In this document: positions 7,279 to 48,036 of the stretch, piece by piece
Position numbering within the stretch: the stretch's first letter is position 1
Layout: each line of letters opens with the position of its first letter
Assembly: GCF_008271655.1 (NCBI RefSeq)
Contig: NZ_VKKX01000054.1
Location: forward strand, 1-64,000
DNA from: Gemmobacter caeruleus
GTDB taxonomy: Bacteria > Pseudomonadota > Alphaproteobacteria > Rhodobacterales > Rhodobacteraceae
Direction of reading: 5' to 3'
DNA length: 64,000 nucleotides
Position numbers and translations under genes: made by a program
The notes under the pieces: generated by a model
Database searches by the model: none
Seen by the model: the letters and a program-made list of their open reading frames with translations, nothing else
What the model was told of the DNA's origin: nothing

Positions 7279-7297
7279 CGCATCCGTAGCGATGCCC

Positions 7298-7331
7298 GGG
7301 GCCGCCTTCGCCGCGAGGGCGGCCCCGTTTT
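7298..7331 (+). terminator. Hairpin between chvE and gguA (attenuator/partial terminator)
   Basis: A perfect 9-bp stem, GGGGCCGCC (7298-7306) with GGCGGCCCC (7318-7326), is followed by GTTTTCCC. It lies between the binding-protein gene and the ATPase gene, where such hairpins commonly give excess binding protein over transporter. Confidence 0.75.
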
Positions 7332-7352
7332 CCCAGACCGCCGAGGCCCGCC

Positions 7353-8873
<1,521 letters not shown>

Positions 8874-8884
8874 GGGGGGCAGGG

Positions 8885-10063: not shown

Positions 10064-10066
10064 TCC

Positions 10067-27544: not shown

Positions 27545-28791
27545 GCCGGGGCTGGTCTCTGGCCGGGCGGCTGTCGCGCCACATCCTGCCGCTGGTGGCG
27601 CTGGGCTGGGTTGCGACCATCGGGCTGGTGGTCTGGGCGCTGGACCATGAAATCGGCGAGCTGATGGACGAAGAGATGGAGACGGTGGTGCAGACCACCA
27701 TCCTGCTGCTCGATTCCGCCGAACATGGCCACGGGCGCGACCCGATCCCGCGCGAGCTGGGTCTGACGCCCGACAGCGACGAACAGGTGCTGCGCGTCAC
27801 CGCCGCCGATCTGCCGGTCTCTCCGGCGCCCTGGGGCGTGCTGAAGCGCGATGGTTTCAGCAATGCGCAGGGTTGGCGCGTGCTGCGCCGGCAGGCCGAT
27901 GGCGCGACGATCGAGATGGGGCATTCCCTGGCCTGGCGGCGCGAGGAGGTGCTAGAAAGCACCAATGTCCTCGTGGTGCCCATGCTGCCGCTGCTGGCGC
28001 TGGTATTATGGGCCACGCGGCGCACCATGCGGCGGTCGATGTCGCCGGTCGGGCGCTTTGCCTCCGAGGTGACAGGGCGGCGGCCCGACGACCTGTCGCC
28101 GCTGGAAACCGGCGGCCTGCCCGATGAGCTGCGCCCGCTGGCGCTGTCATTCAACGATTTCCTGCACCGGATCGACGCGCTGCGGCAGGCCGAGCGGCAC
28201 TTTGTCGCCAATGCCGCGCATGAATTGCGCACGCCGCTGGCCACGCTGCGCGCCCGGCTGGAAACCGGCGGGCCGGATGTGGCGGCGCAGGACATCGCCA
28301 CGCTGGATGCGCTGACCCGCCGGGTGGAGCGCCTGCTGCAACTGTCGCGCGCCGAGGCCGGGCTGGGGCGCGAGGCCGGCGAGGCCGATCTGGTCCGCAT
28401 CCTGCGGCTGGTGCTGGAGGAGGAGGCCCGCCACAGCCCCGGGCCGATCCGGCTGGATGACGGCGATGTGGAACGTCTGCCGCTGCGGGTCGATCCCGAT
28501 GCGCTGGCGATCCTTTTGCGCAACCTGATCGAGAATGCGGTGCAGCATGGCATCGGCGATGTGCGGCTGCGGCTTTACCCCGAGGGGCGGCTGACCCTGT
28601 CGAACGCCGCCGCCCCCGCCGCGGCCTTTCGCATGGCCCCCTTTGACAAGCGCGACGGCTCGCCCGGCACCGGGTTGGGTCTGGCCATCGTGCAGGCCCT
28701 GGCCGAGGATCTGGGTCTGACGCCGGAATGGCGCATCGCCGAGGGCCGCGCCAGCGTCACGCTGGATTTCGCGCCGCTGCGTCAGGGCTAG
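27541..28791 (+). CDS. Two-component sensor histidine kinase
   Basis: A 416-residue membrane kinase of the QseC/PmrB class. Two membrane helices (about 14-34 and 142-160) flank a periplasmic sensor region. His227 in AAHELRTPLATL is the phosphorylation site, and an ATPase domain follows with NLIENAVQHG, and GTGLGLAIVQALA. It overlaps the response regulator by 4 bp and meets the hybrid kinase gene head-on with 4 bp of overlap. Confidence 0.91.
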   Translation: MSRGWSLAGRLSRHILPLVALGWVATIGLVVWALDHEIGELMDEEMETVVQTTILLLDSAEHGHGRDPIPRELGLTPDSDEQVLRVTAADLPVSPAPWGVLKRDGFSNAQGWRVLRRQADGATIEMGHSLAWRREEVLESTNVLVVPMLPLLALVLWATRRTMRRSMSPVGRFASEVTGRRPDDLSPLETGGLPDELRPLALSFNDFLHRIDALRQAERHFVANAAHELRTPLATLRARLETGGPDVAAQDIATLDALTRRVERLLQLSRAEAGLGREAGEADLVRILRLVLEEEARHSPGPIRLDDGDVERLPLRVDPDALAILLRNLIENAVQHGIGDVRLRLYPEGRLTLSNAAAPAAAFRMAPFDKRDGSPGTGLGLAIVQALAEDLGLTPEWRIAEGRASVTLDFAPLRQG

Positions 28792-31025: not shown

Positions 31026-32191
31026 GCCGCCGCCCCGGGCGGATAGAAGGCAAGGCCGGTCATGGTCTGGTTCACATGCATCGCCCCCACCTGTTCGCCA
31101 TAGGTGGAAAAGCCGGTCACCCCGTGGCGCGCGAGGATGTCGGAGATCTCGCGTCCGCATTGGCGGCCCTCGGCCTCCAGCCGGCGAAAAAAGCAGTCAA
31201 AGCCCAGAATGGCCGCCGGCGCCCCGTCGCGCGACAGGCGGGCCAGTTCCTCGGACAGGTGCCCGGCCATGTCGCGCGATTCCGCCAGCGTCAGGATCAG
31301 CCCCTCGGCAATGGCGGAAAAGAAGATCAGCGATCCGTCCGGTTCGGCGCTCTGAATGGCGCGGGCATGGTGACGGCCGCCCACCCGCACCAGCACCGGA
31401 TGGGTGGCAAAGACAAAGGGTGACAGCAGCTCGGGGCGCAGGCCCAGCAGGCGGGCATATTCCTCGGCGGCGGGTTCGTCATTGATGCGCGCCACAATGC
31501 GATGCGCGGGGTCGGCATGGGTCACCACCATGCGCGCCCGCGTCGGTCGCAGATGATCGAGCGAGAAGGGCCGCACCCGCCCCTGCGACCGCAGCAGCGT
31601 CAGCACCGCCGCATTGCGCAGCACCTTGCCCTGCGCATGGACCAGCGTCTGCCGGAAGGCGCCGCCATCGCCCGCCGATCCGCCGATCACCGGCACGGGG
31701 CCAAGACCGCCCGACAGCGCGGCCATCAGCGCATCTTCCTGCCCCGACAGCCCATCGACCAGCAACACCGCGCATTCATTCGGTTTCTGCGCGGCGCGGT
31801 TGCCCAGATTTTGCCGCGTGCGCAGCAGATCGGCGATCACCTGACGCGGATCCAGCTGATCGAGATCCTCGATCACCAGCTGCGCCACTTCGAACCCGGC
31901 GGCGGGCAGGGCAAAGGCCACGATCTGCCCGTCATCATAACCCCGCCCCGTCAACTCGCCCGAGGTGGTGCAGCCGCTGACCCGGGCGGGGGCAAAGGCA
32001 TGCGCCGCGCGGCGGCACAAGGCGGCGCAATCGGCGGCGGGGCTGACGAACAGAAACACCTGCGCAAAGGGGCCGGGGCCAAGCGCGCGCTGCAACTGGG
32101 CCAAAGCGTCCGGGGCATCGGCTGGGGCGGTGGCGGTCAGCGGCTGACCGGGGCGCGCCGGACGGGCATCGGGGGGGGCGGCGGCATCCAT
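31022..32191 (-). CDS. FIST-domain signal-sensing protein
   Basis: A 389-residue soluble protein with FIST_N and FIST_C domains. Seen are FLFVSPAADCAALCRRAAHAF, VSGCTTSGELTGRGYDDG, GGSAGDGGAF and the C-terminal LGFDCFFRRLEAEG and YGEQVGAMHVNQTMTGLAF blocks. FIST proteins are thought to bind small ligands such as amino acids and to pass the signal to partner kinases. The stop overlaps the hybrid kinase ATG (ATGA), supporting a joint sensory unit. The start at 32191 lies 13 bp from the end of the regulator gene. Confidence 0.9.
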   Translation of the reverse strand: MDAAAPPDARPARPGQPLTATAPADAPDALAQLQRALGPGPFAQVFLFVSPAADCAALCRRAAHAFAPARVSGCTTSGELTGRGYDDGQIVAFALPAAGFEVAQLVIEDLDQLDPRQVIADLLRTRQNLGNRAAQKPNECAVLLVDGLSGQEDALMAALSGGLGPVPVIGGSAGDGGAFRQTLVHAQGKVLRNAAVLTLLRSQGRVRPFSLDHLRPTRARMVVTHADPAHRIVARINDEPAAEEYARLLGLRPELLSPFVFATHPVLVRVGGRHHARAIQSAEPDGSLIFFSAIAEGLILTLAESRDMAGHLSEELARLSRDGAPAAILGFDCFFRRLEAEGRQCGREISDILARHGVTGFSTYGEQVGAMHVNQTMTGLAFYPPGAAA

Positions 32192-32204
32192 CCTGCGGCC
32201 GGGC

Positions 32205-32921
32205 CTATCGCCAGCGCCAGGGTTCGGCGACGGCGCCGGTCGAATGCGCCTCGCGCGCCAGCAGCACCGCCTGGGTGCGGCTATAGACCTCCAGCTTGCG
32301 CATGATCGCGGTGACATGCGCCTTGACCGTGGTTTCGGCGATCGACAGGTCATAGGCGATCTGCTTGTTCATCTTGCCCGCGCAGATCTGTTCCAGGATG
32401 TTGGCCTGCTGGCGCGTCAGCTGGCTCAGCCGGCGGATCGCCTCGTCCTGGGGGGTCATGCCATTGCCCTCGGCCAGGGCGTCACCGCTGCTTTCGGGCA
32501 GGAACACCTCGCCCCGGGCGATGGTGGCAAAGGCCGCGCGGAACATCTCGCGCCGCGAATGCTTGGGCACGAACCCCGCCGCGCCGGCCAGGATGGCAGA
32601 GCGGATGACCCGCGGTTCGTCATTCGACGACACCACCACCACCGGCAGATCGGGCGCGGTCTGGCGCAGGCGCATCAGCCCTTCTAGCCCGTTCACATCG
32701 GGCAGATTGAGATCCAGCACCACCACATCGGGCATCGGGCGGCGCGCCTCGATCCGGGCCAGCGCGGTGGTCAGGCATTCGGCGGTTTCCACCGTCTCGA
32801 TCCCGGCCACGGCCTGCAAGGTCATGGTCAGCGCGTCGCAGAACAGCGGATGGTCATCGACGATCAGCGCCGTATGAAAGGCTTGGGCAGCAGCGGGGCT
32901 GGGGCGTTGCTCGGCGGTCAT
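32205..32921 (-). CDS. LuxR/NarL-family response regulator of alcohol oxidation
   Basis: A 238-residue response regulator. The receiver domain has acidic residues in LIVDDHPLF and the phospho-acceptor Asp70 (VVVLDLNLPDVNG). The C-terminal NarL-type helix-turn-helix reads TRQQANILEQICAGKMNKQIA then AETTVKAHVTAIMRKL. It resembles FlhR of Paracoccus and AgmR/PedR1 of Pseudomonas, regulators of PQQ-dependent alcohol dehydrogenases. The start at 32921 is preferred to 32993, which would read through an operator-like dyad. Such regulators often bind 7-2-7 dyads of 16 bp, the size of the repeated element in this island. Confidence 0.9.
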   Translation of the reverse strand: MTAEQRPSPAAAQAFHTALIVDDHPLFCDALTMTLQAVAGIETVETAECLTTALARIEARRPMPDVVVLDLNLPDVNGLEGLMRLRQTAPDLPVVVVSSNDEPRVIRSAILAGAAGFVPKHSRREMFRAAFATIARGEVFLPESSGDALAEGNGMTPQDEAIRRLSQLTRQQANILEQICAGKMNKQIAYDLSIAETTVKAHVTAIMRKLEVYSRTQAVLLAREAHSTGAVAEPWRWR

Positions 32922-32985
32922 GCGACAGGCTCCGGGTCGGGCAGGCGGTTTCCGCAAGCCTAACAAGCCGGGCAGCAGCACCATA

Positions 32986-33001
32986 TGCTCCATAAGTCGA
33001 A
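32986..33001. promoter_or_regulatory. 16-bp dyad site a (upstream of LuxR-regulator operon)
   Basis: TGCTCCATAAGTCGAA; in the other orientation TTCGACTTATGGAGCA. It lies 65 bp upstream of the regulator start. It is the weakest of the eight copies, keeping GAC and GG but little else, and would suggest autoregulation. Confidence 0.45.
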
Positions 33002-34861: not shown

Positions 34862-34973
34862 CTTGTTCCTCCTCCCCTTCGGTCCGCGCCCGCCAGGCGA
34901 CCGGGCTGTCAGGCCGGGCGGTCAGGGTGGTGGGCATGGGCCAAGTATCGGCGGGGCACGCGCGGAACGTATA

Positions 34974-34989
34974 TTGTCCATTGGTCTTA
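34974..34989. promoter_or_regulatory. 16-bp dyad site b (upstream of exaA)
   Basis: TTGTCCATTGGTCTTA; in gene orientation TAAGACCAATGGACAA. It lies 113 bp upstream of the alcohol dehydrogenase start. One of eight related sites in the island. Confidence 0.65.
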
Positions 34990-35641: not shown

Positions 35642-36028
35642 CTATTTCGACACCGAGACAAGATAGCTGACGATGAAATCCTGCACCGTCGGGTCGGTGA
35701 TGCCGACATGGCGCATCTTGGTGCCGGGCACCAGCTCGTCATTGGCCTCCATCCAGGCCTTGAGCGCCCCGGGCGTCCAGACGAATCCCGCACCGGCCAA
35801 CGCCTCGGAATAGGGGTAGCCCTCGAAACTGCCGGCGCGCCGGCCGACCACGCCTTCCAGCAGCGGGCCATAGCTGGCCTTGTCGGCATCGACGGCATGG
35901 CAGCGGTGGCATTCCGCGTCGAACAACTGCCGCCCCGCCGCCACCTTCACGGTCTCGAACGTGTCGGCCAGCGCGGGCGCGGCAAGGGGAGCCGCCACAA
36001 GGGCGGCGGCGATCCAGATGGCTTTCAT
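35642..36028 (-). CDS. Small periplasmic cytochrome c
   Basis: A 128-residue class I cytochrome c. It has a signal peptide (cleavage near PALADTF, residue 21-22), haem attachment motif C40-H-R-C43-H44 and the probable axial Met105 (PGTKMRHVG). It resembles cytochrome c-550 type electron carriers and is a plausible electron acceptor for the quinoprotein dehydrogenase next to it. The start at 36028 gives a proper signal peptide; an upstream in-frame ATG does not. It has its own dyad site 78 bp upstream. Confidence 0.92.
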   Translation of the reverse strand: MKAIWIAAALVAAPLAAPALADTFETVKVAAGRQLFDAECHRCHAVDADKASYGPLLEGVVGRRAGSFEGYPYSEALAGAGFVWTPGALKAWMEANDELVPGTKMRHVGITDPTVQDFIVSYLVSVSK

Positions 36029-36105
36029 GATGCTCTCCGTTCTGACTGTGCCGCGACTGTCGCGCGGCGGGCCGGAAAGCGGGTTGATCGAGGTCAAGCG
36101 CGGTC

Positions 36106-36121
36106 TAGCACTTTGGTCGTA
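36106..36121. promoter_or_regulatory. 16-bp dyad site d (upstream of cytochrome c gene)
   Basis: TAGCACTTTGGTCGTA. The right half GGTCGTA is good; the left half has CAC for GAC. It lies 78 bp upstream of the cytochrome start and just before the stop of Sel1 protein B. Confidence 0.55.
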
Positions 36122-36673: not shown

Positions 36674-36740
36674 CTCGATCCTCCTCGATCCGGGTGGCCC
36701 ATCGTAGCACGGCATGGCGTGCCCGTGGCGGGGCAGCGTC

Positions 36741-36756
36741 TAAGACATTGGTCTTA
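36741..36756. promoter_or_regulatory. 16-bp dyad site e (divergent Sel1-B / PQQ-ABC operon)
   Basis: TAAGACATTGGTCTTA, with perfect outer TAAGAC/GTCTTA arms. It lies 68 bp upstream of Sel1 protein B and 47 bp upstream of the PQQ-associated binding-protein gene, so one site could serve both directions. Confidence 0.75.
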
Positions 36757-36802
36757 TTGCTGCGCTATCCCCCCTCTCGCAGTCTGGGGGCGGGAGGACG
36801 AC

Positions 36803-37972
36803 ATGGCACGCATATCGGTCTGTCTGGCCTTGTCGCTGATCGCGGCACCGGCGGCGGCGGAAACCATTCGAATCGACTGGCTGGAACGGCAGGTAACGCC
36901 GCCGCCGGTGCAGTCGAACATGCAGGCCCGGCCCGAGCGGCTGGGGCTTGACGGCGCAAGGCTGAGCGTGGCGGATATCGCGACGACCGGGCGCTTTACC
37001 GGCATGGATTATCAACTGGTCGAAACCGTGATCCCGCCCGAGGCGCCCTTTCTGCCCGCGGCCGAGGCGGCGCTGGCCCAGGGCGCGCGGCTGCTGGTGG
37101 TCAGCGCGCCGGCGGCGGATCTGCTGGCCCTGGCCGACCTGCCCGCCGCGCGCGACGCGCTGATCCTGAATACCGCCGCCCCGGAAACCAGCCTGCGCGG
37201 CGCCGATTGCCGCGCCAACCTGCTGCATACCCTGCCCTCGGTGGCCATGCGCACCGATGCGCTGGCGCAGTTCATCGTGACGAAACGCTGGACGAACCTT
37301 GCCATGATCGCCGGCACCCTGCCCGAGGATCTGGCCTATGCCGAGGCGATGCGGTCCAGCCTGACCAAGTTCGGCCTTTCGCTGGCAGGCGAAAAGACCT
37401 GGCCCTTCCAGTCGGATCTGCGCCGCGCCGCCACGACCGAGGTGCCGCTGTTCACACAAGACCTGCCTGACCATGACCTGTTGCTGATCGCCGATGAGCG
37501 GGGCGATTTCGGGCGCTATGTCGCCTATAACACCTGGCTGCCGCGCCCCCTTGCCGGGTCGGAGGGGGCGCAGCCGCTGGGCTGGTCGGGGGTGGTGGAA
37601 CAGAACGGCGCGGCGCAGTTGCAGAACCGCTTTCGCGATACGGCGGGGCGCGAGATGGCGCCCGCGGATTTCGCCGCCTGGGCCGCCATCGCCGCTCTGG
37701 GTGACGCCACCACCCGCACCGCGACCGCCGATCCTGCGGCGCTGCGAAGCTATCTGCTGTCTGATCGCGCGCGCATCGCGGGCTTTCTGGGCCGCCCGCT
37801 CAGCTTTCGGGCCTGGGATGGGCAGATGCGCCAGCCCATCCCCATCGTGACCGAACGCGCGGTGGTTGGCCTCGCCCCGTTCGAGGGGTTCCTGCATGCG
37901 GTCAACGAGCTTGATACGCTGGGCCCCGACCAGCCCGAAACCCTTTGCACCGCCTTTCAGGAGGGACCATGA
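36803..37972 (+). CDS. PQQ-dehydrogenase-associated ABC substrate-binding protein
   Basis: A 389-residue periplasmic protein related to branched-chain amino acid type binding proteins and belonging to the family found beside PQQ alcohol dehydrogenases. Signal peptide (MARISVCLALSLIAAPAAAET), then IRIDWLERQVTPPPVQSNMQ and a GADCRANLLHTLPSVAMRTDALAQFIV block. The ligand is unknown. It starts the five-gene operon 36803-40895, whose transporter genes encode an ABC-2 permease rather than an importer, which makes its role unclear. Confidence 0.88.
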   Translation: MARISVCLALSLIAAPAAAETIRIDWLERQVTPPPVQSNMQARPERLGLDGARLSVADIATTGRFTGMDYQLVETVIPPEAPFLPAAEAALAQGARLLVVSAPAADLLALADLPAARDALILNTAAPETSLRGADCRANLLHTLPSVAMRTDALAQFIVTKRWTNLAMIAGTLPEDLAYAEAMRSSLTKFGLSLAGEKTWPFQSDLRRAATTEVPLFTQDLPDHDLLLIADERGDFGRYVAYNTWLPRPLAGSEGAQPLGWSGVVEQNGAAQLQNRFRDTAGREMAPADFAAWAAIAALGDATTRTATADPAALRSYLLSDRARIAGFLGRPLSFRAWDGQMRQPIPIVTERAVVGLAPFEGFLHAVNELDTLGPDQPETLCTAFQEGP

Positions 37973-38940
37973 TCCGCAGCATTCTGATGGGCACCGCGCT
38001 GTCGCTCAGCCTTGCGCCAGCACTGGCAGACGAGATCTGGGTCACGAACGAGATCGACGATACGGTCAGCGTGATTGACGCGCGCACCCTGGAAGTGAAG
38101 GCCACCTATCCCACCGGCGAACGCCCGCGCGGCATCACCTTTTCCAAGGATTTCAAGCGGCTTTACATCTGTGCCTCGGATAGTGACGCGGTGCAGGTGA
38201 TGGATCCCGATACCGGGCAGATCCTGCATGACCTGCCCTCGGGCGAAGACCCGGAGCAATTCGTCCTCGCCCCCGATGACCGGCTGCTTTACATCGCCAA
38301 CGAGGATGACGCGATCACCACCGTGGTCGATACCGAAAGCCGCACGGTGGTGACGCAGATCGACGTGGGCGTGGAACCCGAAGGGATGGGCATCTCGCCC
38401 GACGGGCGCATTCAGGTCACCACCTCTGAAACCACCAACATGGCGCATTGGATCGACACCGAAACCCACAAGATCATCGCCAATACGCTGGTGGACAGCC
38501 GCCCCCGCCACGCCGAATTCCGCCCCGACGGGACCGAGCTTTGGGTCAGTTCCGAAATCGGCGGCACGGTGACGGTGTTCGACACCGCTACCCAGGCCGA
38601 AAAGGGCAGGATCGGCTTTGCCATCACCGGCATCCAGCCCGAAAAGCTGCAACCCGTGGGCATGCGCTTTTCGCCTGACGGGCAGCGCGTCTTTGTGGCG
38701 CTTGGGCCGGCGAACCATGTCGCTGTGGTGAATGCCGCCACGCTGGAGGTGGAGCGCTATATCCTGGTCGGCCGCCGCGTCTGGCATATGGAACTCTCGC
38801 CCGATCAGACACGGCTTTTCACCACCAATGGCGTCTCGGGCGATGTGACGGTGATCGACCTCGCCTCGCTGGAGCCGATTGCGACGGTCAAGGTCGGCCG
38901 CTTTCCCTGGGGCGCCGCCGCGCGCCCGACCCCCAACTGA
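37969..38940 (+). CDS. YVTN-type beta-propeller protein of the PQQ-alcohol system
   Basis: A 323-residue exported seven-bladed propeller. The signal peptide ends near SLAPALADE (about 20); repeats such as IWVTNEIDDTVSVIDARTLEV, LYIANEDDAITTVVDTESRTV and LFTTNGVSGDVTVIDLASLEP are YVTN-like. Members of this family accompany quinoprotein dehydrogenases. A structural or electron-transfer-partner role in the periplasm is likely; no catalytic site is visible. ATG overlaps the previous stop (ATGA). Confidence 0.9.
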   Translation: MIRSILMGTALSLSLAPALADEIWVTNEIDDTVSVIDARTLEVKATYPTGERPRGITFSKDFKRLYICASDSDAVQVMDPDTGQILHDLPSGEDPEQFVLAPDDRLLYIANEDDAITTVVDTESRTVVTQIDVGVEPEGMGISPDGRIQVTTSETTNMAHWIDTETHKIIANTLVDSRPRHAEFRPDGTELWVSSEIGGTVTVFDTATQAEKGRIGFAITGIQPEKLQPVGMRFSPDGQRVFVALGPANHVAVVNAATLEVERYILVGRRVWHMELSPDQTRLFTTNGVSGDVTVIDLASLEPIATVKVGRFPWGAAARPTPN

Positions 38941-39392: not shown

Positions 39393-40107
39393 CGCCGCGC
39401 TTGCCGTTTCGGGGCTGAACCACGCCTGGGGCGGCAAACCCGCGCTGCGCGATGTGTCCTTCAGCCTGGCGCCGGGGAGGTTCTGCGCGCTGCTGGGGCC
39501 GAACGGCGCCGGCAAATCGACGCTGATGGCGGTCTTGACCGGGCTGATCCGGCCCGCGCCGGCTGTGGTGCTGGTGGCGGGGCAGGATATGGGCCGCGCG
39601 CCGCGCCGGGCATTGGCCGGCATGGGGGTGGTGTTCCAGCAGCCGACCTATGATCTGGATCGCAGCGTGGTCGCCAACCTGCATTATTTTGCGGCGCTTC
39701 AGGGCCTGACCCGCGCCGAGGCCGATCGCCGCATCGCCGGGGCGCTGGCCCGGCTGGGCATGGCCGAACGGGCGGGTGAAAAGGTGGGCGCGCTGAATGG
39801 CGGGCATCGCCGGCGGATGGAGATCGCCCGCGCCCTTTTGCACCGCCCGCGGCTTCTCTTGCTGGACGAACCGACCGTGGGTCTGGATGCCCCCGCCCGC
39901 GCGGCGATCACCGCCCATGTCCATGACCTGACCGCCGAGGGGATCGCCGTTCTCTGGGCCACGCATCTGGTGGATGAACTGCGCGACAGCGACGATCTGG
40001 TGCTGCTGCATCGCGGGAAGGTCGCGGCGGCGGGGCAGGTGGGGGCGGTGCGCGGGGCGCAGCCCTTGCAGGACTGGTTTCTGGCACAGACGGGGGCTGC
40101 CGCATGA
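39361..40107 (+). CDS. ABC transporter ATPase of the PQQ-alcohol system
   Basis: A 248-residue ATPase with Walker A GPNGAGKS, a Q-loop (VVFQQPTYDLD), signature-like LNGGHRRRMEIARALL in place of LSGGQ, and Walker B LLLLDEPTVGLD, then an ATHLVDE switch. It belongs to the ABC-2 exporter class and to the subfamily seen with PQQ alcohol dehydrogenases. The first ATG (39361) overlaps the previous gene by 32 bp; a TTG at 39385 (MNDAALAVSGLNHAW) is an equally plausible start. Overlaps the permease by 4 bp. Confidence 0.88.
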   Translation: MRSGSRSPLNDAALAVSGLNHAWGGKPALRDVSFSLAPGRFCALLGPNGAGKSTLMAVLTGLIRPAPAVVLVAGQDMGRAPRRALAGMGVVFQQPTYDLDRSVVANLHYFAALQGLTRAEADRRIAGALARLGMAERAGEKVGALNGGHRRRMEIARALLHRPRLLLLDEPTVGLDAPARAAITAHVHDLTAEGIAVLWATHLVDELRDSDDLVLLHRGKVAAAGQVGAVRGAQPLQDWFLAQTGAAA

Positions 40108-40895
40108 CCGCCCTGCGCGCCGCCACCGCCATCCTGACCCGCGAGGTCGCGCGGTTCCTGACACAGCGCGAACGCTTCTTCGCCGCGCTGGTGCGGCCGC
40201 TGGTCTGGCTTTTCGTCTTTGCGGCGGGGTTCCGGGCGGCGCTTGGCCTGTCGATCATCCCGCCCTACAAGACCTATATCACCTACGAGACCTATATCGC
40301 CCCCGGCCTGTGCGGCATGATCCTGCTGTTTGCCGGGATGCAAAGCTCGCTCAGCCTGGTGAATGACCGCGAAAGCGGCACGATGCGGCTGATGCTGACC
40401 GCGCCCTGGCCGCGCTGGTTCCTGCTGGGGGCCAAGCTGGTGGCGGGGGCGGCGGTGGCGCTGTTGCAGGTGGCGGCCTTTCTGGCCATCGCCGCCGCCT
40501 ATGGCATCCGCTTCAGCCCGGCGGGCTATCTGGCGGCGATTCCCGCGCTGGTGCTGGCGGGGCTGATGCTGGGGGCGCTTGGTCTGTTCCTGTCGTCGCG
40601 CGTGCGGCAGCTGGAGAATTTCGCGGGGGTGATGAATTTCGTGATCTTCCCGATGTTCTTCCTGTCTTCGGCGCTTTATCCGCTGTGGAAGATGCAGGAA
40701 AGCTCGCCCCTGCTGGCCATGATCTGCCGCGCGAATCCGTTTACCCATGCGGTCGAACTGGTGCGTTTCGCGCTTTATGGCCAGGTCAACCTGCCTGCCT
40801 TGGGCTGGACGGTGCTGGCGGGCGGGCTGTTCTTTGCGCTGGCGGTCTGGGGCTATGAACCCGCGCGCACCCGCCCCGCCCGCGGGGAAGGCTAG
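40104..40895 (+). CDS. ABC-2 type membrane permease of the PQQ-alcohol system
   Basis: A 263-residue inner-membrane protein with six predicted helices. It has the ABC-2 features VNDRESGTMRLMLTAPWPRWFLLGAKL and FFLSSALYPLWKMQ before NPFTHAVELVRFALYG. Such permeases move drugs, lipids, polysaccharides or haem-related compounds outward, or act in maturation of periplasmic enzymes. Overlaps the ATPase gene by 4 bp and meets the NitT/TauT-type ATPase gene head-on. Confidence 0.9.
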   Translation: MTALRAATAILTREVARFLTQRERFFAALVRPLVWLFVFAAGFRAALGLSIIPPYKTYITYETYIAPGLCGMILLFAGMQSSLSLVNDRESGTMRLMLTAPWPRWFLLGAKLVAGAAVALLQVAAFLAIAAAYGIRFSPAGYLAAIPALVLAGLMLGALGLFLSSRVRQLENFAGVMNFVIFPMFFLSSALYPLWKMQESSPLLAMICRANPFTHAVELVRFALYGQVNLPALGWTVLAGGLFFALAVWGYEPARTRPARGEG

Positions 40896-41485
40896 CGCGA
40901 AAGCAGCCGCGCCGGGCGCCCTTCCAACCGCGCCCGCCTTGTGGTCAGCCGCGCCAGCTCGGCCTCGGAATGCGAGGCGAGGATGACGGCGGGTCGCGTC
41001 TCCGCGATCAGCGCGGCGGTCAGATCCAGCAAATCCTCCACCCGTTCCTGATCGAGCGAGACAAAGGGTTCGTCCAGGATCAGCACCTCGGGGCGGGCGG
41101 CAAAGGCGCGGGCCAGCCCGACGCGCCGCGCCTGACCCAGGGACAATTGCCCCGGCCAGTGCTGTTCCATCCCCGCCAGCCCGACCCGCGCCAGCCAGCC
41201 CCGCGCCTCGGCCCCGGTCGCGCCCGTGGGCAGGGTGACATTGTCGATCACCCGCCGCCAGGGCATCAGCGTGGGCGACTGAAAGACCATCGCGCTGCGT
41301 CCGGCGGGATGCAGATCGCCATCGAAGCGCGTATCCACCCCGGCGAGGATGCGCAAAAGCGTGCTTTTGCCCGCGCCCGACGACCCCTCGATCCCCAGCA
41401 CCTCGCCCGGTGCGACGGCAAGCGACAAGGGCCCCAGGATCGCGGTTGCGCCAAAGGATTTGCCCCGCAGGTCCAGCCGGATCAT
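40892..41485 (-). CDS. NitT/TauT-type ABC importer, ATPase
   Basis: A short 197-residue ATPase of the SsuB/TauB class: Walker A GSSGAGKST, Q-loop MVFQSPTLMPWRRVIDNV, signature LSLGQARRVGLARAF, Walker B VLILDEPFVSLD and HSEAEL switch. The usual C-terminal extension is missing, so it is shorter than the 230-260 residues common in the class. Third gene of the binding-protein/permease/ATPase operon, coupled by ATGA overlap to the permease. Confidence 0.9.
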   Translation of the reverse strand: MIRLDLRGKSFGATAILGPLSLAVAPGEVLGIEGSSGAGKSTLLRILAGVDTRFDGDLHPAGRSAMVFQSPTLMPWRRVIDNVTLPTGATGAEARGWLARVGLAGMEQHWPGQLSLGQARRVGLARAFAARPEVLILDEPFVSLDQERVEDLLDLTAALIAETRPAVILASHSEAELARLTTRRARLEGRPARLLSR

Positions 41486-42297
41486 GCCGCCGCCCTCCAG
41501 CCCGTTGCGCGGCGCGCCAGCGGCGCCAGCACCAGCCATTCCACCGCCAGCATGACCGCCACGAAGGCCAGCGCATTGGCCAGAACGCCGGTAATGTCGA
41601 ACATCTGGAAATTCAGATGGATGCGAAAGCCGATGCCGTTGGAGCGGCCCAGAAATTCGACCACCAGCACGATCTTCCAGATCAGCGAAACCCCCGCCCG
41701 CGCGGCGGCAAGCAGATGCGGCACCAGTTGCGGCAGCAGGATATGGCGCAGCCGTGCCAGCGGCGCCATGCGAAAGGCGCGGGCCATCTCGGCCAGGGCC
41801 GGGTCGCGGGCCTGCACGCCCTCGCGCAGGATCACGGCGACCAGCGGCACCTTGTTCAGCGCCACGGCGGCGATTGCCGCCGTCTCGTTCAGCCCGATCC
41901 AGAGGTAACACAGCACGATCAGCACCAGCGCCGGGATGTTGTTCCAGACCGTGAGCCAGGGGTCGAGCCAGTCATTCGCGCGGCGCGACAGGCCAAGGCC
42001 GATGCCAAGCGCCGTGCCCAGCCCCATGGCCAGCACGAAGGCCGCCGCCACCCGGCCCAGTGTCGCGCCCAGATCGGCCCACATCCGCCCTGAGGCCAGC
42101 CCCTCCCACAGGGCGGGCAGCACCTGCGCCGGGCCGGGCGCGCGCAGGGGGTCGTCCAGCAGCGCCGCCCCGGCCGCCCAGACCCCGATCAGCGCCAGCA
42201 CCGACAGCATCGGGCGCAGCGGCCCCGCCCCCGGCGCGGGGGGCGGGGCCGTCAGGGCCGGAGCCGGGGGGGCGGCGGGGCGCGCCAAGCCCAGCAT
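41482..42297 (-). CDS. NitT/TauT-type ABC importer, permease
   Basis: A 271-residue permease with six predicted helices, preceded by a proline/alanine-rich cytoplasmic stretch. The EAA loop (EMARAFRMAPLARLRHILLPQLVPHL) and VWNNIPALVLIVLCYLWIG are SsuC/TauC-like. It pairs with the binding protein 3 bp upstream. Confidence 0.9.
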   Translation of the reverse strand: MLGLARPAAPPAPALTAPPPAPGAGPLRPMLSVLALIGVWAAGAALLDDPLRAPGPAQVLPALWEGLASGRMWADLGATLGRVAAAFVLAMGLGTALGIGLGLSRRANDWLDPWLTVWNNIPALVLIVLCYLWIGLNETAAIAAVALNKVPLVAVILREGVQARDPALAEMARAFRMAPLARLRHILLPQLVPHLLAAARAGVSLIWKIVLVVEFLGRSNGIGFRIHLNFQMFDITGVLANALAFVAVMLAVEWLVLAPLARRATGWRAAA

Positions 42298-42300
42298 GCC

Positions 42301-43269
42301 CTATTGCGACAGGAAGGTGCCGGGCGGCAGGTCATGCACCTTGCCCACCAGCTCTTCTCCGCCCAGATCGGCCATCAGGGCCAGCATCCGCCCCGCCGCA
42401 GCCTGATCGACCGGCGCATCCGCGGGGATGCCGGCGCGATAGCCCGCCACCAGCGCCGCATATTGCGCGTCATTCTTGGCGTTCATCTGGTCGCGCAGCC
42501 GGGCAAAGGCCGCTTCGTCACGCGCCAGCAGTTCCTTGGCGGCGCGCGAGGCACGTTTCAGCCCGGCCACCATCGCGGGGCGTTCCGCGACCAGACGGTC
42601 TGACACCACATAGCCCAGAAGCGGGGTTTCGGGGTCAAGGCCAAGCGCCTGTGCCGCGTCCGACACGCTGACCAGCGTGGTCATGCCGCGCGTCTCCATC
42701 TTGGCCATGAAATGCCAGAAGTTGATGGCGGCATCCACCTCGCCCGACAGGGCCGATTCCATGATCAGGGGCGGCGCGCCGAACACCTGTTCGGTCTCGG
42801 TCGCCAGGTCCAGCCCCAGTTCCTTTTGCGCATAGGCGCGCAGGATCAGCCAGCTTTTGTCCAGCGGGCCACCGGCGATGCCGATCTTCTTGCCCTTCAG
42901 ATCGCCCAGCGAGGCGATGCCGCCCTCGGGGCGCACCATCAGCCCGCCCACGGCGCGCGAATAGGGGATGAAGGTGAAATCCTGCCCCTCGGCCCGCATC
43001 CGCGCGACCCAGAACCAGTCGGTCACGATGGCATCGGCCTCGCCGCCTTGCAGGGCCACTTGCGCCGCCGGATTGCCCGCCACCGGCATCACCTCCAGCT
43101 CAAAGCCCTCGGCCTTGTCCAGCCCGTAATGGCGGATCGTATCGAGTTCCCAGTTGACCGTGCCGCCCTCAAGCGCGGCGACCTTCAGCACCGGCAGGTC
43201 TTCGGCCCGGGCACCGACGGCGCCCATTGCCATACATGCCGCCAGCAGGCAGCCCCAGAGTCGTTTCAT
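42301..43269 (-). CDS. NitT/TauT-type ABC importer, substrate-binding protein
   Basis: A 322-residue periplasmic binding protein (signal peptide to VGARAED, about 22). It shows VLKVAALEGGTVNWELDTI, GNPAAQVALQGGEADAIVTDWFWVA and GKKIGIAGGPLDKSWLILRAYA, typical of the SsuA/TauA/ThiY group. The ligand is not deducible: sulfonate, thiamine-precursor and nitrate binders share the fold. It lies inside the alcohol-oxidation island and is preceded by a dyad site, so its ligand is probably connected with that metabolism. Confidence 0.88.
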   Translation of the reverse strand: MKRLWGCLLAACMAMGAVGARAEDLPVLKVAALEGGTVNWELDTIRHYGLDKAEGFELEVMPVAGNPAAQVALQGGEADAIVTDWFWVARMRAEGQDFTFIPYSRAVGGLMVRPEGGIASLGDLKGKKIGIAGGPLDKSWLILRAYAQKELGLDLATETEQVFGAPPLIMESALSGEVDAAINFWHFMAKMETRGMTTLVSVSDAAQALGLDPETPLLGYVVSDRLVAERPAMVAGLKRASRAAKELLARDEAAFARLRDQMNAKNDAQYAALVAGYRAGIPADAPVDQAAAGRMLALMADLGGEELVGKVHDLPPGTFLSQ

Positions 43270-43338: not shown

Positions 43339-43354
43339 TTAGACCATTGGCCAA
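43339..43354. promoter_or_regulatory. 16-bp dyad site f (upstream of NitT/TauT ABC operon)
   Basis: TTAGACCATTGGCCAA. It lies 70 bp upstream of the minus-strand binding-protein gene, in the same divergent region as site g. Confidence 0.6.
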
Positions 43355-43392
43355 TACGGTTTGCGCCCGGTTTGCCGCCAGTTTGCTCTGGT

Positions 43393-43469: not shown

Positions 43470-44171
43470 ATGCTCGACACCCGCAGCCGCCGCGTTGTCG
43501 CGGCCCTGACGCTTGCCGGCCTCATGGCCCCCGCGCTGGCGCCTGTCGCCGTTCTGGCGCATGGCGATGTGGCGCCCCAGCCCGTGAACACCGATGCCCT
43601 GCCCGATGTGGGCGAGGAATGGCTGACCGAAAACCCCTACCGCGCCGAGAAGGCCGGCGAGGAAACCTGGCGCGCCGCCCTGCATATCGGCGATTCCGGC
43701 TATAACCAGAACTGCGCCCGCTGCCATGGGCTTGGCGCGGTGTCGGGCGGCCTGGCCCCCGACCTGCGTTTCCTTGAGGCGGCGGAATATGGCGATGAAT
43801 GGTTCGCCGAACGGTTCCAGCATGGCTACACCCAGGACGGCACCACCAAGATGCCCGCCTTTGGCGAGGTTCTGGGCCAGAAGGCCGGCTGGGCGATCCG
43901 CACCTATATCGAGACGCGCCCCGAGGATGGCGCGCTGGATGGCCATTCCGACCGGTTGCACAAGCTGCGTGATGAACTGGCCGCCGGACAGGGCGATGGC
44001 GCCGCGATCAAGGCCGAGCTCATGCAGATCGCCGCCGAGGTCAAGACCGCCTCGGGCGCCCCCGTGGCCGACAGCGTGGTCAGCCGCGCCGCCGAGACGC
44101 TGACCGACGATCCTGCCAGCTTCAAGCACGCGGCCGAGGTGCTGACCATCGGCCTGTCCGCGGCGCAGTGA
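43470..44171 (+). CDS. pedF: Cytochrome c-550 PedF
   Basis: A 233-residue periplasmic monohaem cytochrome of the PedF family, the specific electron carrier found with ethanol-type PQQ dehydrogenases. Signal peptide spans about residues 1-30 (ALAPVAVLAHGD). Haem motif is C82-A-R-C85-H86, with a methionine in TKMPAFGEV as likely sixth ligand. The C-terminal helical region (KLRDELAAGQGDGAAIKAEL) extends beyond the haem fold. A GAGAGAGAG ribosome site precedes the ATG at 43470. Next gene overlaps its stop. Confidence 0.92.
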   Translation: MLDTRSRRVVAALTLAGLMAPALAPVAVLAHGDVAPQPVNTDALPDVGEEWLTENPYRAEKAGEETWRAALHIGDSGYNQNCARCHGLGAVSGGLAPDLRFLEAAEYGDEWFAERFQHGYTQDGTTKMPAFGEVLGQKAGWAIRTYIETRPEDGALDGHSDRLHKLRDELAAGQGDGAAIKAELMQIAAEVKTASGAPVADSVVSRAAETLTDDPASFKHAAEVLTIGLSAAQ

Positions 44172-45094
44172 TGCGCGCGCGCGGCAGGCCCGGGCGCCGC
44201 GGGGTTCTGGCGGCGATGGTGCTGGCGCTGGCCGGGCTGGGGTTTACCCCCCGCCCGGCCCTTGCCGCTTGCGAGGGGGTGGCGCCGGAACAGCGCCTGC
44301 AAAACACCGCGCCGCAGGATATCGGCCGGTCGCTGGATCGTATCCGCGAGGATGGGTGGATCGAATTCGCGCTTTATGAGGATTACCGCCCCTGGTCCTG
44401 GCAAGAGGCCGGTCAGCCGCGCGGCATCGACGTGGATATCGCCCGCCTGATCGCCGCCGATCTGGGGGTGGAGGCACGCATCCGTCTGGTCACGGCGGGC
44501 GAGACGCTGGATGCCGATCTGCTGAATTACGTCTACAAGGGCGCGGCGGTCGGCGGGCATGTTTCCAATGTCATGCTGCATGTGCCCTATGACGTGGATT
44601 ATGCCTGCCGTTTCGATCAGGTGGTGTTTACCGGGCAATATGCCTCGGAACGGCTGGCGATTGCCTATGATCTGGCATCCTACCCCGAAAAGGGCCCGAC
44701 CCCGGCGGTGTTCCGCTATGATCCGGTGGGGGTGGAGAATGACTCGATCTCCGATTTCTTCCTGACGTCGGTGGCGCATGGGGCGACGGCCGACAAGGTG
44801 CATCGCTTCAAATCCACCGGCGCGGCCATGGAGGGCCTGGCCCGGCATGAGGTCATGGCGGTGATGGGGCCGCGCGCGGAAATCGACGCTGCGATGACCG
44901 AGGGGCTGGCGGTGCATGAGCCGGGCCTACTGGGGCTGGCGCGGTCGAAATGGACGCTGGGGGTGGCGGTGTCGTTCCAGCACCGGCCGCTGGCCTATGC
45001 GGTGGACGATGCCATCGCCGCCGCGCTGGCAGATGGGCGCATCGCGGCGATTTTCGCGGGCTATGGCGTCGATTACATGGCGCCGGTCAGGTAA
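44171..45094 (+). CDS. Quinoprotein-dehydrogenase-associated binding protein (MoxJ-like)
   Basis: A 307-residue exported protein of the solute-binding family 3 fold, in the group that includes MoxJ/XoxJ and sits beside PQQ alcohol dehydrogenases. After an arginine-rich signal peptide (cleavage near RPALAACE, about 34) it reads WIEFALYEDYRPWSWQEAGQPRGIDVDIARLIAADLGVEARIRLV. MoxJ-type proteins are thought to act in maturation or activation of the dehydrogenase rather than transport. ATG overlaps the pedF stop (TGATG); a GTG one codon earlier is also possible. Confidence 0.88.
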   Translation: MRARGRPGRRGVLAAMVLALAGLGFTPRPALAACEGVAPEQRLQNTAPQDIGRSLDRIREDGWIEFALYEDYRPWSWQEAGQPRGIDVDIARLIAADLGVEARIRLVTAGETLDADLLNYVYKGAAVGGHVSNVMLHVPYDVDYACRFDQVVFTGQYASERLAIAYDLASYPEKGPTPAVFRYDPVGVENDSISDFFLTSVAHGATADKVHRFKSTGAAMEGLARHEVMAVMGPRAEIDAAMTEGLAVHEPGLLGLARSKWTLGVAVSFQHRPLAYAVDDAIAAALADGRIAAIFAGYGVDYMAPVR

Positions 45095-45941
45095 GGGCGA
45101 TTTCGCGCAGATCGCCGGCCGCATCGACCAGCAGCACCGACCACAGCCCGAGCGCGGCCGCCGCCTTGCGGATGGCCGGCTCGGGCATCAGCACGAAGGC
45201 GGTGGAGGCCGCGTCGCAGATCGCCGCCTCTGGCCCCTGCACCGTGACGGTGGACCAGAGCGGCACCTCGCCCCGCGGGCCAAGGATATGGCTGCCGCCG
45301 GGCAGCGACAGCGCGGCGGGGGAGCTGGTGGCCATGGCGCCGCCGGTCAGGCTGCGCCAGCCCAGCAGGCCGGTCTGCGGATCCTCGATCCCCAGCCGGA
45401 ACGCGCCGCCGATGGCCGCGAATTCGCCCATGTCGATCAGCGCATGGCGCAGCCCCTGCGCGGCACAGATCGCGCGGATGCGGTCGGCGGCATGGCCCTG
45501 CGCGATGCCGTTCAGCGTCAGGGCCTGACCCGGGGCCAGCCGGATGTCGCGCCCGATGCGCAGCCGGTCAAACCCGATCCGCCCGCGCGCCACCCGCCCG
45601 TCGCCCCCCTGTGCCAGCGCCTGCCAGAGCGGCTGCACCGTCGGGTCAAAGGCGGCGCCCGTTGCCGCATGAACCTGTGCCGCCTGTGCCAGAACGGCGC
45701 GCATCCGGGCAGAGCCGGGTGCCTGGCCCCGGGCGTTCAGCCGGGTCAGCTCGCTGTCGGCCATCAGCGAAAACGCGGCCTCGATCGCTGCGATCTCCGA
45801 CAGGATCGCGCGCATCGGCGCGGGGCCGTCGGTCTGGATCACCAGATCCGCGCCGAAGGCCCGCCCGCGCCAAAGCGTGTCGGCCCGGGCCGGAAAGGCC
45901 ATTGCCGCCGCCAGAACATGCAGGAACCGCCGCCGCTTCAT
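45087..45941 (-). CDS. apbE: FAD:protein FMN transferase
   Basis: A 284-residue exported ApbE-family flavin transferase, which attaches FMN covalently to a Thr in periplasmic acceptor proteins. It has a short signal peptide (MKRRRFLHVLAAAMAFPARAD), FSLMADSELTRLNARG, and the metal/FAD site TLNGIAQGHAADRI with LIDMGEFAAIGG. The last domain has STAFVLMPEPA. It overlaps by 4 bp the end of a NosR-like gene with an FMN-binding domain, its obvious target. The start at 45941 gives the signal peptide. Confidence 0.92.
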   Translation of the reverse strand: MKRRRFLHVLAAAMAFPARADTLWRGRAFGADLVIQTDGPAPMRAILSEIAAIEAAFSLMADSELTRLNARGQAPGSARMRAVLAQAAQVHAATGAAFDPTVQPLWQALAQGGDGRVARGRIGFDRLRIGRDIRLAPGQALTLNGIAQGHAADRIRAICAAQGLRHALIDMGEFAAIGGAFRLGIEDPQTGLLGWRSLTGGAMATSSPAALSLPGGSHILGPRGEVPLWSTVTVQGPEAAICDAASTAFVLMPEPAIRKAAAALGLWSVLLVDAAGDLREIALT

Positions 45942-47986
45942 GCCGCCCTCCGCGCCCGTTTCGCCGCCAGAACCAGCGGCACGCACTGGCCCGGGTCGTC
46001 ATGGATTTTTACACAGTCAAGGCATTGGAAACATTCTGAATACCGGATCTCGCCCTTAGGGGCGATGGCCTGATAGCGGCATTTCACCCGGCAAAGCTGG
46101 CAGGGCGTGCCGCAGGCGTCGCGGCGCGGAATCCAGCGGCGCAGGCGCAGCATCCCGCCCAGCCGCATCGCCGCGCCCAGGGGGCAGAGCGACCGGCAAA
46201 AGCCCTTGAACCACACCGCCGAGACCGCGATCCATCCCGCCGCCCACAGCACATAGGGCAGGGGGCGGGCAAAATGCACGGTGATCGCGGTCTTGAACGG
46301 TTCGATCTCGGCCACCGCCTCGGCCCGGTCGGGGGAAAGAAAGGCGATGGCGATCAGCGCCACAAGGGCCACCGGCCCCGTCCAGAGCAGCGCGCGGCCA
46401 AGGGTCGGCGGCGGCTCCCATTGCGGCAGGCGCAACAGGCGGCCAAGGTGATGGGCGAATTCCTGCAAGGCACCGAACGGGCAGAGCCAGCCACAGAAAA
46501 AACCGCGCCCCCAAAGCAGAAAGCCGAGCCCCGCCGCCGCCCAGACCATCAGCCCGAACGGGTCATAAAGCAGCACCTCCAACCCGCCGCCGACCAGCCC
46601 GCGCAGAAAGGCCAGGATGGTGACGACCGACAATTGCCCCTGCCCCCAAAAGCCGACAAAGCCGGTCATCACCGCCAGCAGGCCCAACCGGATCGCGGTG
46701 AAATGGCGCTGCGCCGCCAGCCGCGACTGCATCGACAGCAGCCCGAACAGCAGGGCGAGAAACAGGCCCAGCCAGACCAGATCGCCCGCGCGATTGCGCA
46801 GCGCCTCGGCAAAGGGCGACAGCGGCGCCGGCGCCTCGGGGCGCAGGAAGAACCGCTCCGGCGTGGCCAGCGTCACACTGAAATACGCCGATCCCGGTTC
46901 GGGCTGAAACTGGCCATGCAGGCGGATGGCCTGAAGGCTCAGATCCCAGGGCCGGGTCGGATCGAAACCCAGCCGGCGATCCAGCCGCAGCACCATCTGG
47001 GTGGCGTCATGCAGGTCGCCGGGCAGATCGGAGGCCAGCGAGGGCAGGATATCGGCATCGCGCAGCGCCAGCGGCAACCCGTCTTGCTGGGCCGACAGCC
47101 GGTCGGGCGCGGTGTTGCGCACGAAATCCTCCGATACCAGGCCATGCCGCCCGGCCTCGATCAGCAGGAACAGTTCGTCATCCGGCGCGCGGCTGGAAAA
47201 ACGTGCAATCTCGGCCAGCGTATCGGGCGCCAGCACGGCACGCGCCAGAGCCGGCGGGCCGAGGTCGATGACGTAAAGGTCGATATAGGGCGTGTCGCCC
47301 GGTGCCGCATCGCCGTCGGCGGCCCATTTCGTGCCGGCAAAGGCCGCGTCCAGATCGGTTTCCGACACGGTCAGCCGCCCGACCAGCCCCTGTTCCAGCA
47401 GATCGGCCCAACCCAGCCGTTCATCATGGGCGGGGTCGGGGCGGGGGGGCGGGCCGGCACTGACCCCTTGCATCTTTTCCCGCGCCACGGCCAGCGTGGC
47501 GGCGAGAATGGATTCATGCGCGATGCGCACGCTGGCCGTGGCCTTGGTCACCCCGTCGAGATAGACATTGTCCGAGGCCGCGCCGCCCTCGCCATAGGGG
47601 GTGCCGACGACCAGCGGTTCGTTGATCGCATGACCCCGATACTGGTCCAGAAAGGCGCGGAACGGTGCCTCGCCCAGGCCCGAGACGAAGATCGGCTCGT
47701 TCTGCGCCAACAGCCGCACGTCGATGAACCGCCCCTCAAGATCGAGCAGCACCAGCATGTTGATCGGCTGGCCGGAAAAGCCGGGCAGCGGCGCCAGTTC
47801 GCCGGTTTCAAAGACATAACCCGCCTCGCCCCCGCCGGAATTGCGCAGGCTCCAGACGCCCTTGTCATTCACCGGATCGCCAAGCGCATAGGGCGCAAGG
47901 ATCAGCGGCTCCAGCCCCTCGCGCGACAGGGGGGCCGCGGCAAGGGGCGTTGCAAGCAGGAACAGAAGGACAAGCATGCGCCACAT
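45938..47986 (-). CDS. NosR-like membrane flavo-iron-sulfur protein
   Basis: A 682-residue protein with the NosR/NirI plan: signal peptide, periplasmic FMN-binding domain (about 20-170) with the flavinylation motif DGVTKATAS and acceptor Thr150, a second periplasmic region to about 400, four to six membrane helices (402-418, 431-447, 470-493, 533-550, 577-594), two CxxxCP motifs (Cys498/502 and Cys597/601) and a C-terminal cytoplasmic ferredoxin-like region with cysteines 625, 629, 632, 636, 652, 655, 658 and 668. NosR supplies electrons to nitrous oxide reductase, but no nos gene is near. Dyad site h in front of it links it to alcohol oxidation. Confidence 0.9.
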   Translation of the reverse strand: MWRMLVLLFLLATPLAAAPLSREGLEPLILAPYALGDPVNDKGVWSLRNSGGGEAGYVFETGELAPLPGFSGQPINMLVLLDLEGRFIDVRLLAQNEPIFVSGLGEAPFRAFLDQYRGHAINEPLVVGTPYGEGGAASDNVYLDGVTKATASVRIAHESILAATLAVAREKMQGVSAGPPPRPDPAHDERLGWADLLEQGLVGRLTVSETDLDAAFAGTKWAADGDAAPGDTPYIDLYVIDLGPPALARAVLAPDTLAEIARFSSRAPDDELFLLIEAGRHGLVSEDFVRNTAPDRLSAQQDGLPLALRDADILPSLASDLPGDLHDATQMVLRLDRRLGFDPTRPWDLSLQAIRLHGQFQPEPGSAYFSVTLATPERFFLRPEAPAPLSPFAEALRNRAGDLVWLGLFLALLFGLLSMQSRLAAQRHFTAIRLGLLAVMTGFVGFWGQGQLSVVTILAFLRGLVGGGLEVLLYDPFGLMVWAAAGLGFLLWGRGFFCGWLCPFGALQEFAHHLGRLLRLPQWEPPPTLGRALLWTGPVALVALIAIAFLSPDRAEAVAEIEPFKTAITVHFARPLPYVLWAAGWIAVSAVWFKGFCRSLCPLGAAMRLGGMLRLRRWIPRRDACGTPCQLCRVKCRYQAIAPKGEIRYSECFQCLDCVKIHDDPGQCVPLVLAAKRARRAA

Positions 47987-48020
47987 GCGCCCAGCCTAGA
48001 GCGCGCGGGGAAATTGCCTA

Positions 48021-48036
48021 TTCGACCTAAGTCGCG
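48021..48036. promoter_or_regulatory. 16-bp dyad site h (upstream of NosR-like/apbE operon)
   Basis: TTCGACCTAAGTCGCG, with CGAC/GTCG arms. It lies 35 bp upstream of the NosR-like gene and is the last of the eight copies. Confidence 0.62.

Follow-up and report, generated by a model that had tools for sequence, protein, structure and literature searches.

A NosR-like flavin and iron-sulfur membrane protein in a PedH-type alcohol oxidation gene set of Gemmobacter caeruleus and related Alphaproteobacteria

What does a relative of NosR do among genes of alcohol oxidation? The question is raised by a stretch of 64,000 nucleotides of Gemmobacter caeruleus (contig NZ_VKKX01000054.1, positions 1 to 64,000; hereafter the window), which carries the gene of a NosR-like flavin and iron-sulfur (Fe-S) membrane protein, for which we coined the label NosRL in this analysis, coupled to an apbE gene. 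The first-pass annotation of this DNA had proposed that such a protein was recruited to quinoprotein alcohol oxidation, and the proposal stood. The membership of NosRL in an alcohol-oxidation module is well supported, because NosRL co-occurs with the other genes of the module, lies in synteny with them, branches apart from NosR and NirI in the tree and shares an upstream motif with the module. As to its function, we find the case about evenly balanced for NosRL and ApbE forming an accessory electron wire through the membrane, dedicated to PedH-type pyrroloquinoline quinone (PQQ) alcohol oxidation in Alphaproteobacteria, with outward flow favoured. The genes concerned are the following:

45938 to 47986, (-) strand: NosR-like protein NosRL, 682 aa, with a signal peptide, a periplasmic domain of the flavin mononucleotide (FMN) type, a second periplasmic beta domain, membrane helices and a C-terminal 8-Cys ferredoxin-like region
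45087 to 45941, (-) strand: ApbE flavinyltransferase with a twin-Arg N-terminus (MKRRRF); PF02424 8e-35; ATGA overlap with NosRL
43470 to 44171, (+) strand: PedF cytochrome c550 (ATG at 43470; scanned from 43488); TIGR04494 189 bits, cut-off 122
44168 to 45094, (+) strand: MoxJ/PedG-like periplasmic binding protein; SBP_bac_3 passed over 47 residues only; the name PedG is by analogy with the portions covered of PMC12997753
33095 to 34861, (-) strand: PedH-type PQQ alcohol dehydrogenase; WDFDGVN at residues 319-325, with Asp320 and Asp322

The architecture of NosRL is NosR-like: the FMN-type domain, two CxxxCP motifs (C498/C502 and C597/C601) and the C-terminal 8-Cys region are all present, and the periplasmic domain bears the flavinylation-type motif DGVTKATAS with Thr150. 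These elements had already been listed at first pass, and the twelve motif cysteines (two CxxxCP plus eight C-terminal) and Thr150 proved invariant in 81 out of 81 rows, that is, the window and 80 relatives (the top 80 of 569, all from named genomes and 57-79% identical to the window NosRL). The protein met PF12801 (Fer4_5; 49.6 bits, cut-off 22); Pfam FMN_bind scored 13.7 bits, under its 22-bit cut-off, and the NCBIfam model of NosR (NF046105) gave 412.5 bits, its cut-off of 1000 not being reached. No solved structure matched NosRL by sequence at E 0.01. We also obtained an AlphaFold2 model from 36 sequences, with a mean predicted local distance difference test score of 79.8. The best Foldseek match of this model was chain G of an Rnf complex (E 1.9e-3; nothing at E 0.001), and in a second structural comparison Rnf chain G and NqrC, which residues 1-174 of the model resemble, filled the top six rows (Z 9.6-12.6, NosRL residues 1-176), the next row reaching 4.8. 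Chain G of Rnf complexes and NqrC bear covalent FMN. For the second periplasmic domain (about 190-385) the structural matches were low and tied (Z < 5).

We surveyed 149 genomes of the family, each from a different genus, scoring up to 7 candidates per genome (3 or 2 in the phylum-level surveys), so that copies can escape. Matches of at least 52% identity were taken as NosRL (31 genomes, one of them split between two contigs), the rest showing 41% or less, a border chosen after the gap was seen. The dehydrogenase (at least 76% identity) was found in 29 of the 31 NosRL genomes versus 1 of the 118 others (Fisher 2e-27, the Fisher tests ignoring phylogeny beyond the choice of one genome per genus). 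PedF (29/31 versus 2/118) and the PedG-like gene (29/31 versus 1/118) followed the same pattern. The NosRL genomes lacking a dehydrogenase match were G020, where the gene lies at a contig end, and G122 (76% complete), and those lacking a PedF or PedG-like match were G020 and G098 (84% complete). Among the other genomes, no NosRL was found in G147 (73% complete), which holds the dehydrogenase, PedF and the PedG-like gene; G002 holds PedF with neither a PedG-like gene nor NosRL, and its dehydrogenase is Ser-type, accompanied by a 38% paralogue. NosZ over cut-off was present in 11 of the 31 NosRL genomes versus 32 of the 118 others (p = 0.38), and 20 of the 31 show none. Thus, of the pattern suggested at first pass, co-occurrence with exaA and pedF and absence of nosZ, the former was found, and the latter is not general, though there is no enrichment of NosZ either.

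The gene order points the same way. The ATG of apbE at 45941 overlaps the nosRL stop as ATGA, confirming the coupling noted at first pass, and apbE lies downstream of nosRL on the same strand in 78 of the 80 loci (it was not found in L032 and L069). The pedF and MoxJ/PedG-like genes, convergent with the nosRL-apbE pair, border it in the window, as had been described, and both flank nosRL in 65 of the 80 loci; 27 loci have the dehydrogenase in the flank. A compact set is found on a Paracoccus aestuarii plasmid, comprising NosRL, ApbE, the PedG-like protein, PedF, a beta-propeller protein, a binding protein, the dehydrogenase, a response regulator, a FIST protein and a PAS-domain protein. In three loci away from pedF (L044, L075, L082) the divergent neighbour of nosRL is pqqB, followed by pqqC and pqqE, and in L033, where pedF is present, pqqB again takes this place.

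A 20-base upstream motif was trained on 27 dehydrogenase upstreams, where its 27/27 is by construction, and its threshold was the 99% level of mononucleotide shuffles. It exceeded this threshold in 65 of 65 pedF, 21 of 21 ssuA-like, 59 of 63 binding-protein and 55 of 81 nosRL upstreams, sets that are partly dependent, since pedF/ssuA and nosRL/ssuC share divergent upstreams. The operon-internal controls rarely did so (apbE 1/78, moxJ 2/65, beta-propeller 0/63, small gene 0/40, permease 1/29), and ssuC (17/43) and sel1b (17/42) were intermediate. The statement that nosRL has the same upstream dyad as exaA is supported across relatives. Taken by itself, the window gives the nosRL site a low score (9.2, the register being shifted, at 48029), and two other sites, at 13573 and 37024, reach 11.8 and 9.8. 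A fixed 18-base consensus gave little at nosRL, the best matches having mostly 7-8 mismatches, near the shuffles. The sites of the window are:

48010 to 48033, (-) strand: candidate nosRL operator, the dyad GACTTAGGTC (48033-48024) plus GAATAGGCAATTT, with comparative support only
34970 to 34989, (-) strand: motif site upstream of the dehydrogenase, 27.6, a training gene
43339 to 43358, (+) strand: motif site in the pedF / ssuA-like intergenic region, 22.8
36102 to 36121, 36121(-): further motif site, 18.3
36737 to 36760: overlapping motif pair just upstream of the PedA1-like gene, 36756(-) 15.6 and 36741(+) 10.8

Could NosRL be a spare NosR or NirI serving denitrification? The genome does hold one NosZ (C1:7701-9611, 1112 bits, cut-off 625), a NosR of its own adjoining nosZ (C1:9735-11660, 31-34% identical to NosRL) and a NirI-like paralogue at C23, a name that is our own label, taken from the sequence and the neighbouring apbE, a scan of the open reading frame (ORF) upstream of this paralogue having named nothing. 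The first-pass remark that no nos or nir gene is present thus holds at most for the window, where nosZ is absent (annotated part about 24000-57600; nirS was not searched for), and not for the genome, which has nosZ and nosR elsewhere. In a tree of 55 rows, NosR and NirI clustered together (26 rows) and were split from the NosRL clade and its relatives (29 rows) with support 100/100; the 20 rows of the NosRL clade formed one side of a branch, again with 100/100. The comparison with true NosR called for at first pass therefore separates NosRL from the NosR of the genome's own nosZ. NosRL shares with NosR/NosX and NirI/NirX the architecture, the Cys motifs, a cognate ApbE and about 31-35% identity. 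It differs from NosR and NirI in forming its own clade, in reading DGVTKAT where NosR has DxxSGAT and NirI DxISRAT, and in having no statistical link to nosZ. We rejected a spare NosR for denitrification on the 100/100 split and the lack of NosZ enrichment, and consider this role extremely unlikely.

Beyond the family, the comparison genomes at phylum level were picked rather than sampled. Outside the class, relatives on the NosRL side of the tree turned up in eight genomes (L108-L112, L114, L117, L118), and G322, of the same class as the window, holds one at 44-46%. All nine have an extra-Asp dehydrogenase. In L117 its gene adjoins that of the relative, in L118 a single ORF separates the two, and in G322 they are about 13 kb apart; in the other six it is not nearby. 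In L118 (10680-13718) the order is dehydrogenase, one ORF, NosR-like gene, pqqB, pqqC and pqqE. The related clade of L108-L112 and L114 is not beside the dehydrogenase, with neighbours scanned for L109 only; there (7120-10603) the NosRL relative adjoins a bktB-type thiolase gene, with no dehydrogenase beside it. On the tree the alcohol-linked genes of the two classes take two changes, though they may still share a single origin, L118 being a long branch. In five genomes where only a nosZ-linked NosR was found (G602, G852, G541, G816, G613) no dehydrogenase was detected at 1e-60, nor was one in G814, whose single homologue was outside the tree.

Which alcohol dehydrogenase does NosRL accompany? 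The best solved relatives of the window enzyme were 6zcv (868.6 bits) and 6zcw (860.1 bits), with 1flg at 694.1. According to the parts of PMC11845868 available to us, 6zcw is PedH with Pr3+ and 1flg a PedE-type enzyme, and ExaF/PedH carry one more Asp, at a position usually taken by Ser or Thr in ExaA/PedE. This extra Asp was present in 18 out of 18 readable dehydrogenases of NosRL loci, the other 9 of 27 being partial with the site missing. Further regions gave 18 more Asp-type dehydrogenases, two of them without any NosRL or clade relative found (L144 of G147 and L133 of G654). Six dehydrogenase paralogues at 51-54% identity read WDFSGNN, and one at 36% has neither motif. The dehydrogenase of the NosRL set is thus of the PedH type and predicted to be lanthanide-dependent.

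Four transporter genes, all on the (+) strand and all over the cut-off of their models, lie between the dehydrogenase and pedF:

36803 to 37972, (+) strand: PedA1-like ATP-binding cassette binding protein (TIGR03863)
37945 to 38940, (+) strand: PedA2-like beta-propeller protein (TIGR03866)
39394 to 40107, (+) strand: PedB-like ATPase (TIGR03864)
40104 to 40895, (+) strand: PedC-like permease (TIGR03861)

Their counterpart in Pseudomonas putida is the PedA1A2BC lanthanide transporter (PMC12997753, in the portions covered). With the ped cluster of that species the NosRL set shares a PedH-type enzyme, PedF, a PedG-like protein and a transporter of this type, and it differs from it in its NosR-like and ApbE genes, which the ped cluster lacks in the same portions of that review. 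The PedH-type dehydrogenase with its extra Asp, the PedA1A2BC-type transporter and the Lys-for-Gly flavinylation site described below are points that go beyond the first-pass annotation.

That annotation had also called the combination undescribed, which it is not: a flavinylated NapH-like/NosR-like protein combined with an alcohol dehydrogenase has been in print since 2021. In the parts available of Méheust et al. 2021 (PMC8238504), NapH-like flavinylation clusters are reported with the ExaA ethanol oxidase in 172 genomes, associations that probably arose several times. Those clusters have in common with the NosRL set a PF12801 membrane Fe-S protein, a periplasmic domain of the (here predicted) FMN type, an ApbE gene and an ExaA-type dehydrogenase; unlike them, the NosRL set keeps PedF, and its dehydrogenase is of the PedH type. 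The same study annotated five genes on either side in flavinylation clusters, and the window dehydrogenase, about 11 kb from nosRL, lies outside this span; it is nearer in other loci (e.g. L148). Our results narrow the gene-cluster link of 2021 between flavinylated NapH-like proteins and alcohol oxidases to the PedH-like, predicted lanthanide-dependent type. A literature search found no paper treating PedF together with NosR.

How might the wire work? ApbE, which carries a twin-Arg signal, would attach FMN to Thr150, and electrons would pass between cytoplasmic [4Fe-4S] centres or the quinone pool, the CxxxCP sites in the membrane and the periplasmic FMN, as the conserved residues suggest. PedF, which is co-present, would remain the oxidant of reduced PQQ, NosRL being no replacement for it. 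In the inward direction, the flavoprotein would take electrons of the dehydrogenase or of PedF to the quinone pool, as a substitute for the cytochrome or as a second branch. This is the published proposal for the NapH-like/ExaA clusters, in which the flavoprotein hands the electrons of the oxidase to the chain where other organisms use cytochrome c (PMC8238504, same parts). Such a flow would suit an oxidative pathway and would be expected to conserve more energy. PedF, however, is found in 29 of the 31 NosRL genomes, and therefore cytochrome replacement does not fit the NosRL clade, for which the substitute model is unsuited; only the second-branch version is left. In addition, NosR and PceC, which are named as the characterised relatives, work for reductases, and covalent FMN and cytoplasmic [4Fe-4S] centres usually have a lower potential than PQQ, which also counts against inward flow. 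We regard inward flow as possible and the less probable direction. We favour outward flow, from quinol or cytosol to the periplasm, because the characterised relatives serve reductases and NosR has been proposed as an electron donor to NosZ (PMC7660919, PMC12052999, both in part). By analogy with that proposal, NosRL would keep one member of the set of dehydrogenase, PedF and PedG in a reduced or active state.

Several observations weigh against an outward electron wire dedicated to this module. An oxidative pathway offers outward flow no evident substrate, and the co-occurrence statistics have the blindness to phylogeny mentioned above. In 13 of the 80 loci none of the five alcohol genes lies within the available flank, five of these loci having less than 2.5 kb of flank on the apbE side. 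An Asp-type (PedH-type) dehydrogenase occurs in G654 with only a nosZ-linked NosR and no member of the NosRL clade, and the words FMN, 4Fe-4S, NosR and ferredoxin are absent from the main text of the ped-cluster review (PMC12997753); from these two points it follows that NosRL is not required everywhere. Finally, the flavinylation site itself is unusual. The published ApbE-target motif is D-x-x-[S/T]-G-A-[S/T], and in the parts seen of the same source changing its Gly to Ala alone cuts flavinylation to about half (PMC12052999). In NosRL, Lys replaces this Gly in 82 out of 82 rows, with the complete DGVTKAT in 78.

The same position (residue 148 in NosRL) is occupied by Gly in 21 of 21 NosR rows. 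Of 10 NirI rows, 9 carry Arg there and 1 carries His; of the nine NosRL relatives, 8 carry Lys and 1 carries Ser. Judging from these residues, either the NosRL site is unflavinylated or its own ApbE would tolerate Lys; the Lys-for-Gly site is a simple exception to the published motif. The 25 sampled NosRL-linked ApbEs form one side of a branch (Shimodaira-Hasegawa-like approximate likelihood ratio test 97) and NosX needs 2 changes, in a quick tree that includes over-long NirX rows. The parts available of PMC7660919 describe NosX as system-specific, NirX being no substitute, and cite an older study in which the two were interchangeable. Partner-specific ApbEs would fit the reported specificity of NosX. 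As an observation in its own right, this position, two residues ahead of the target Thr and filled by Lys in NosRL, by Gly in NosR and mostly by Arg in NirI, is a possible partner code for ApbE paralogues. A comparison for an acidic ApbE residue pairing with the target Lys or Arg gave nothing usable, the NirX rows L160, L168 and L169 being over-long frames and L165 too short. A bolder combination, which we put forward tentatively and think rather doubtful, is that NosRL would be a quinol- or cytosol-driven flavin reductase maintaining the lanthanide-PQQ module and, at the same time, would carry a Lys-type site recognised by an ApbE lineage of its own, with Gly, Arg and Lys helping to pair NosX, NirX and this ApbE with their targets. 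We know of no quinoprotein with such a reductive upkeep step.

A regulatory role has precedents among the paralogues: in the parts seen of the two sources, loss of NirI abolishes nir transcription (PMC3541799), and NosR is needed for the Cu-responsive transcription of nosZ (PMC7660919). On these grounds NosRL might report on the state of either the quinone pool or the dehydrogenase, and expression of the module might depend on it. Against this, a separate response regulator, FIST and kinase set already lies beside the dehydrogenase, and nosRL bears the motif of the module, as a target gene would; we consider the sensing role unlikely. The neighbours of the dehydrogenase on its two sides include:

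32205 to 32993, (-) strand: NarL-type response regulator, candidate regulator of the module; the nearest models, ErdR and NarL, are both under cut-off
35642 to 36025, (-) strand: second c-type cytochrome (PF00034)

The regulator belongs to a group at 28788-32993 with a NosP-like FIST protein (NF041558 342.5 bits, cut-off 450) and a NahK/ErcS'-like kinase (407 bits, cut-off 1500), so that a nitric-oxide-sensing family adjoins the alcohol module, with scores under the curated cut-offs. The order response regulator, FIST and PAS protein after the dehydrogenase recurs on the Paracoccus aestuarii plasmid.

NosRL might also serve a neighbouring step, PQQ supply or a molybdenum aldehyde oxidoreductase of the CoxMLS type, rather than the dehydrogenase itself. 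A molybdenum hydroxylase of the CoxMLS / glyceraldehyde-dehydrogenase type is found in 22 of the 80 loci (e.g. L044 13007-16817; counted at 67% identity or more to the coxL of L044, with one 29% match dropped), mostly directly after apbE, and pqqB is the divergent neighbour in 4 of the 80. The available sequence of the other 58 loci and the window holds no such coxL (besides the 29% match and a coxM and coxS pair in L050, after which the contig ends), and the dehydrogenase co-occurs with NosRL in 29 of the 31 genomes; we hold this alternative to be very unlikely. Oxidation of the aldehyde product would be a possible task of the molybdenum hydroxylase in these 22 loci.

Solved structures include none closely related to the MoxJ-like protein (best E 1e-4), and none of the 80 loci gave a match to the sulfotransferase gene upstream of nosRL. 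An SsuABC/NMT1-like transporter occupies 40892-43269 of the window, and its ssuC-like gene occurs in 43 of the 80 loci. Finally, two Rhodobacter capsulatus strains carry the NosRL gene.

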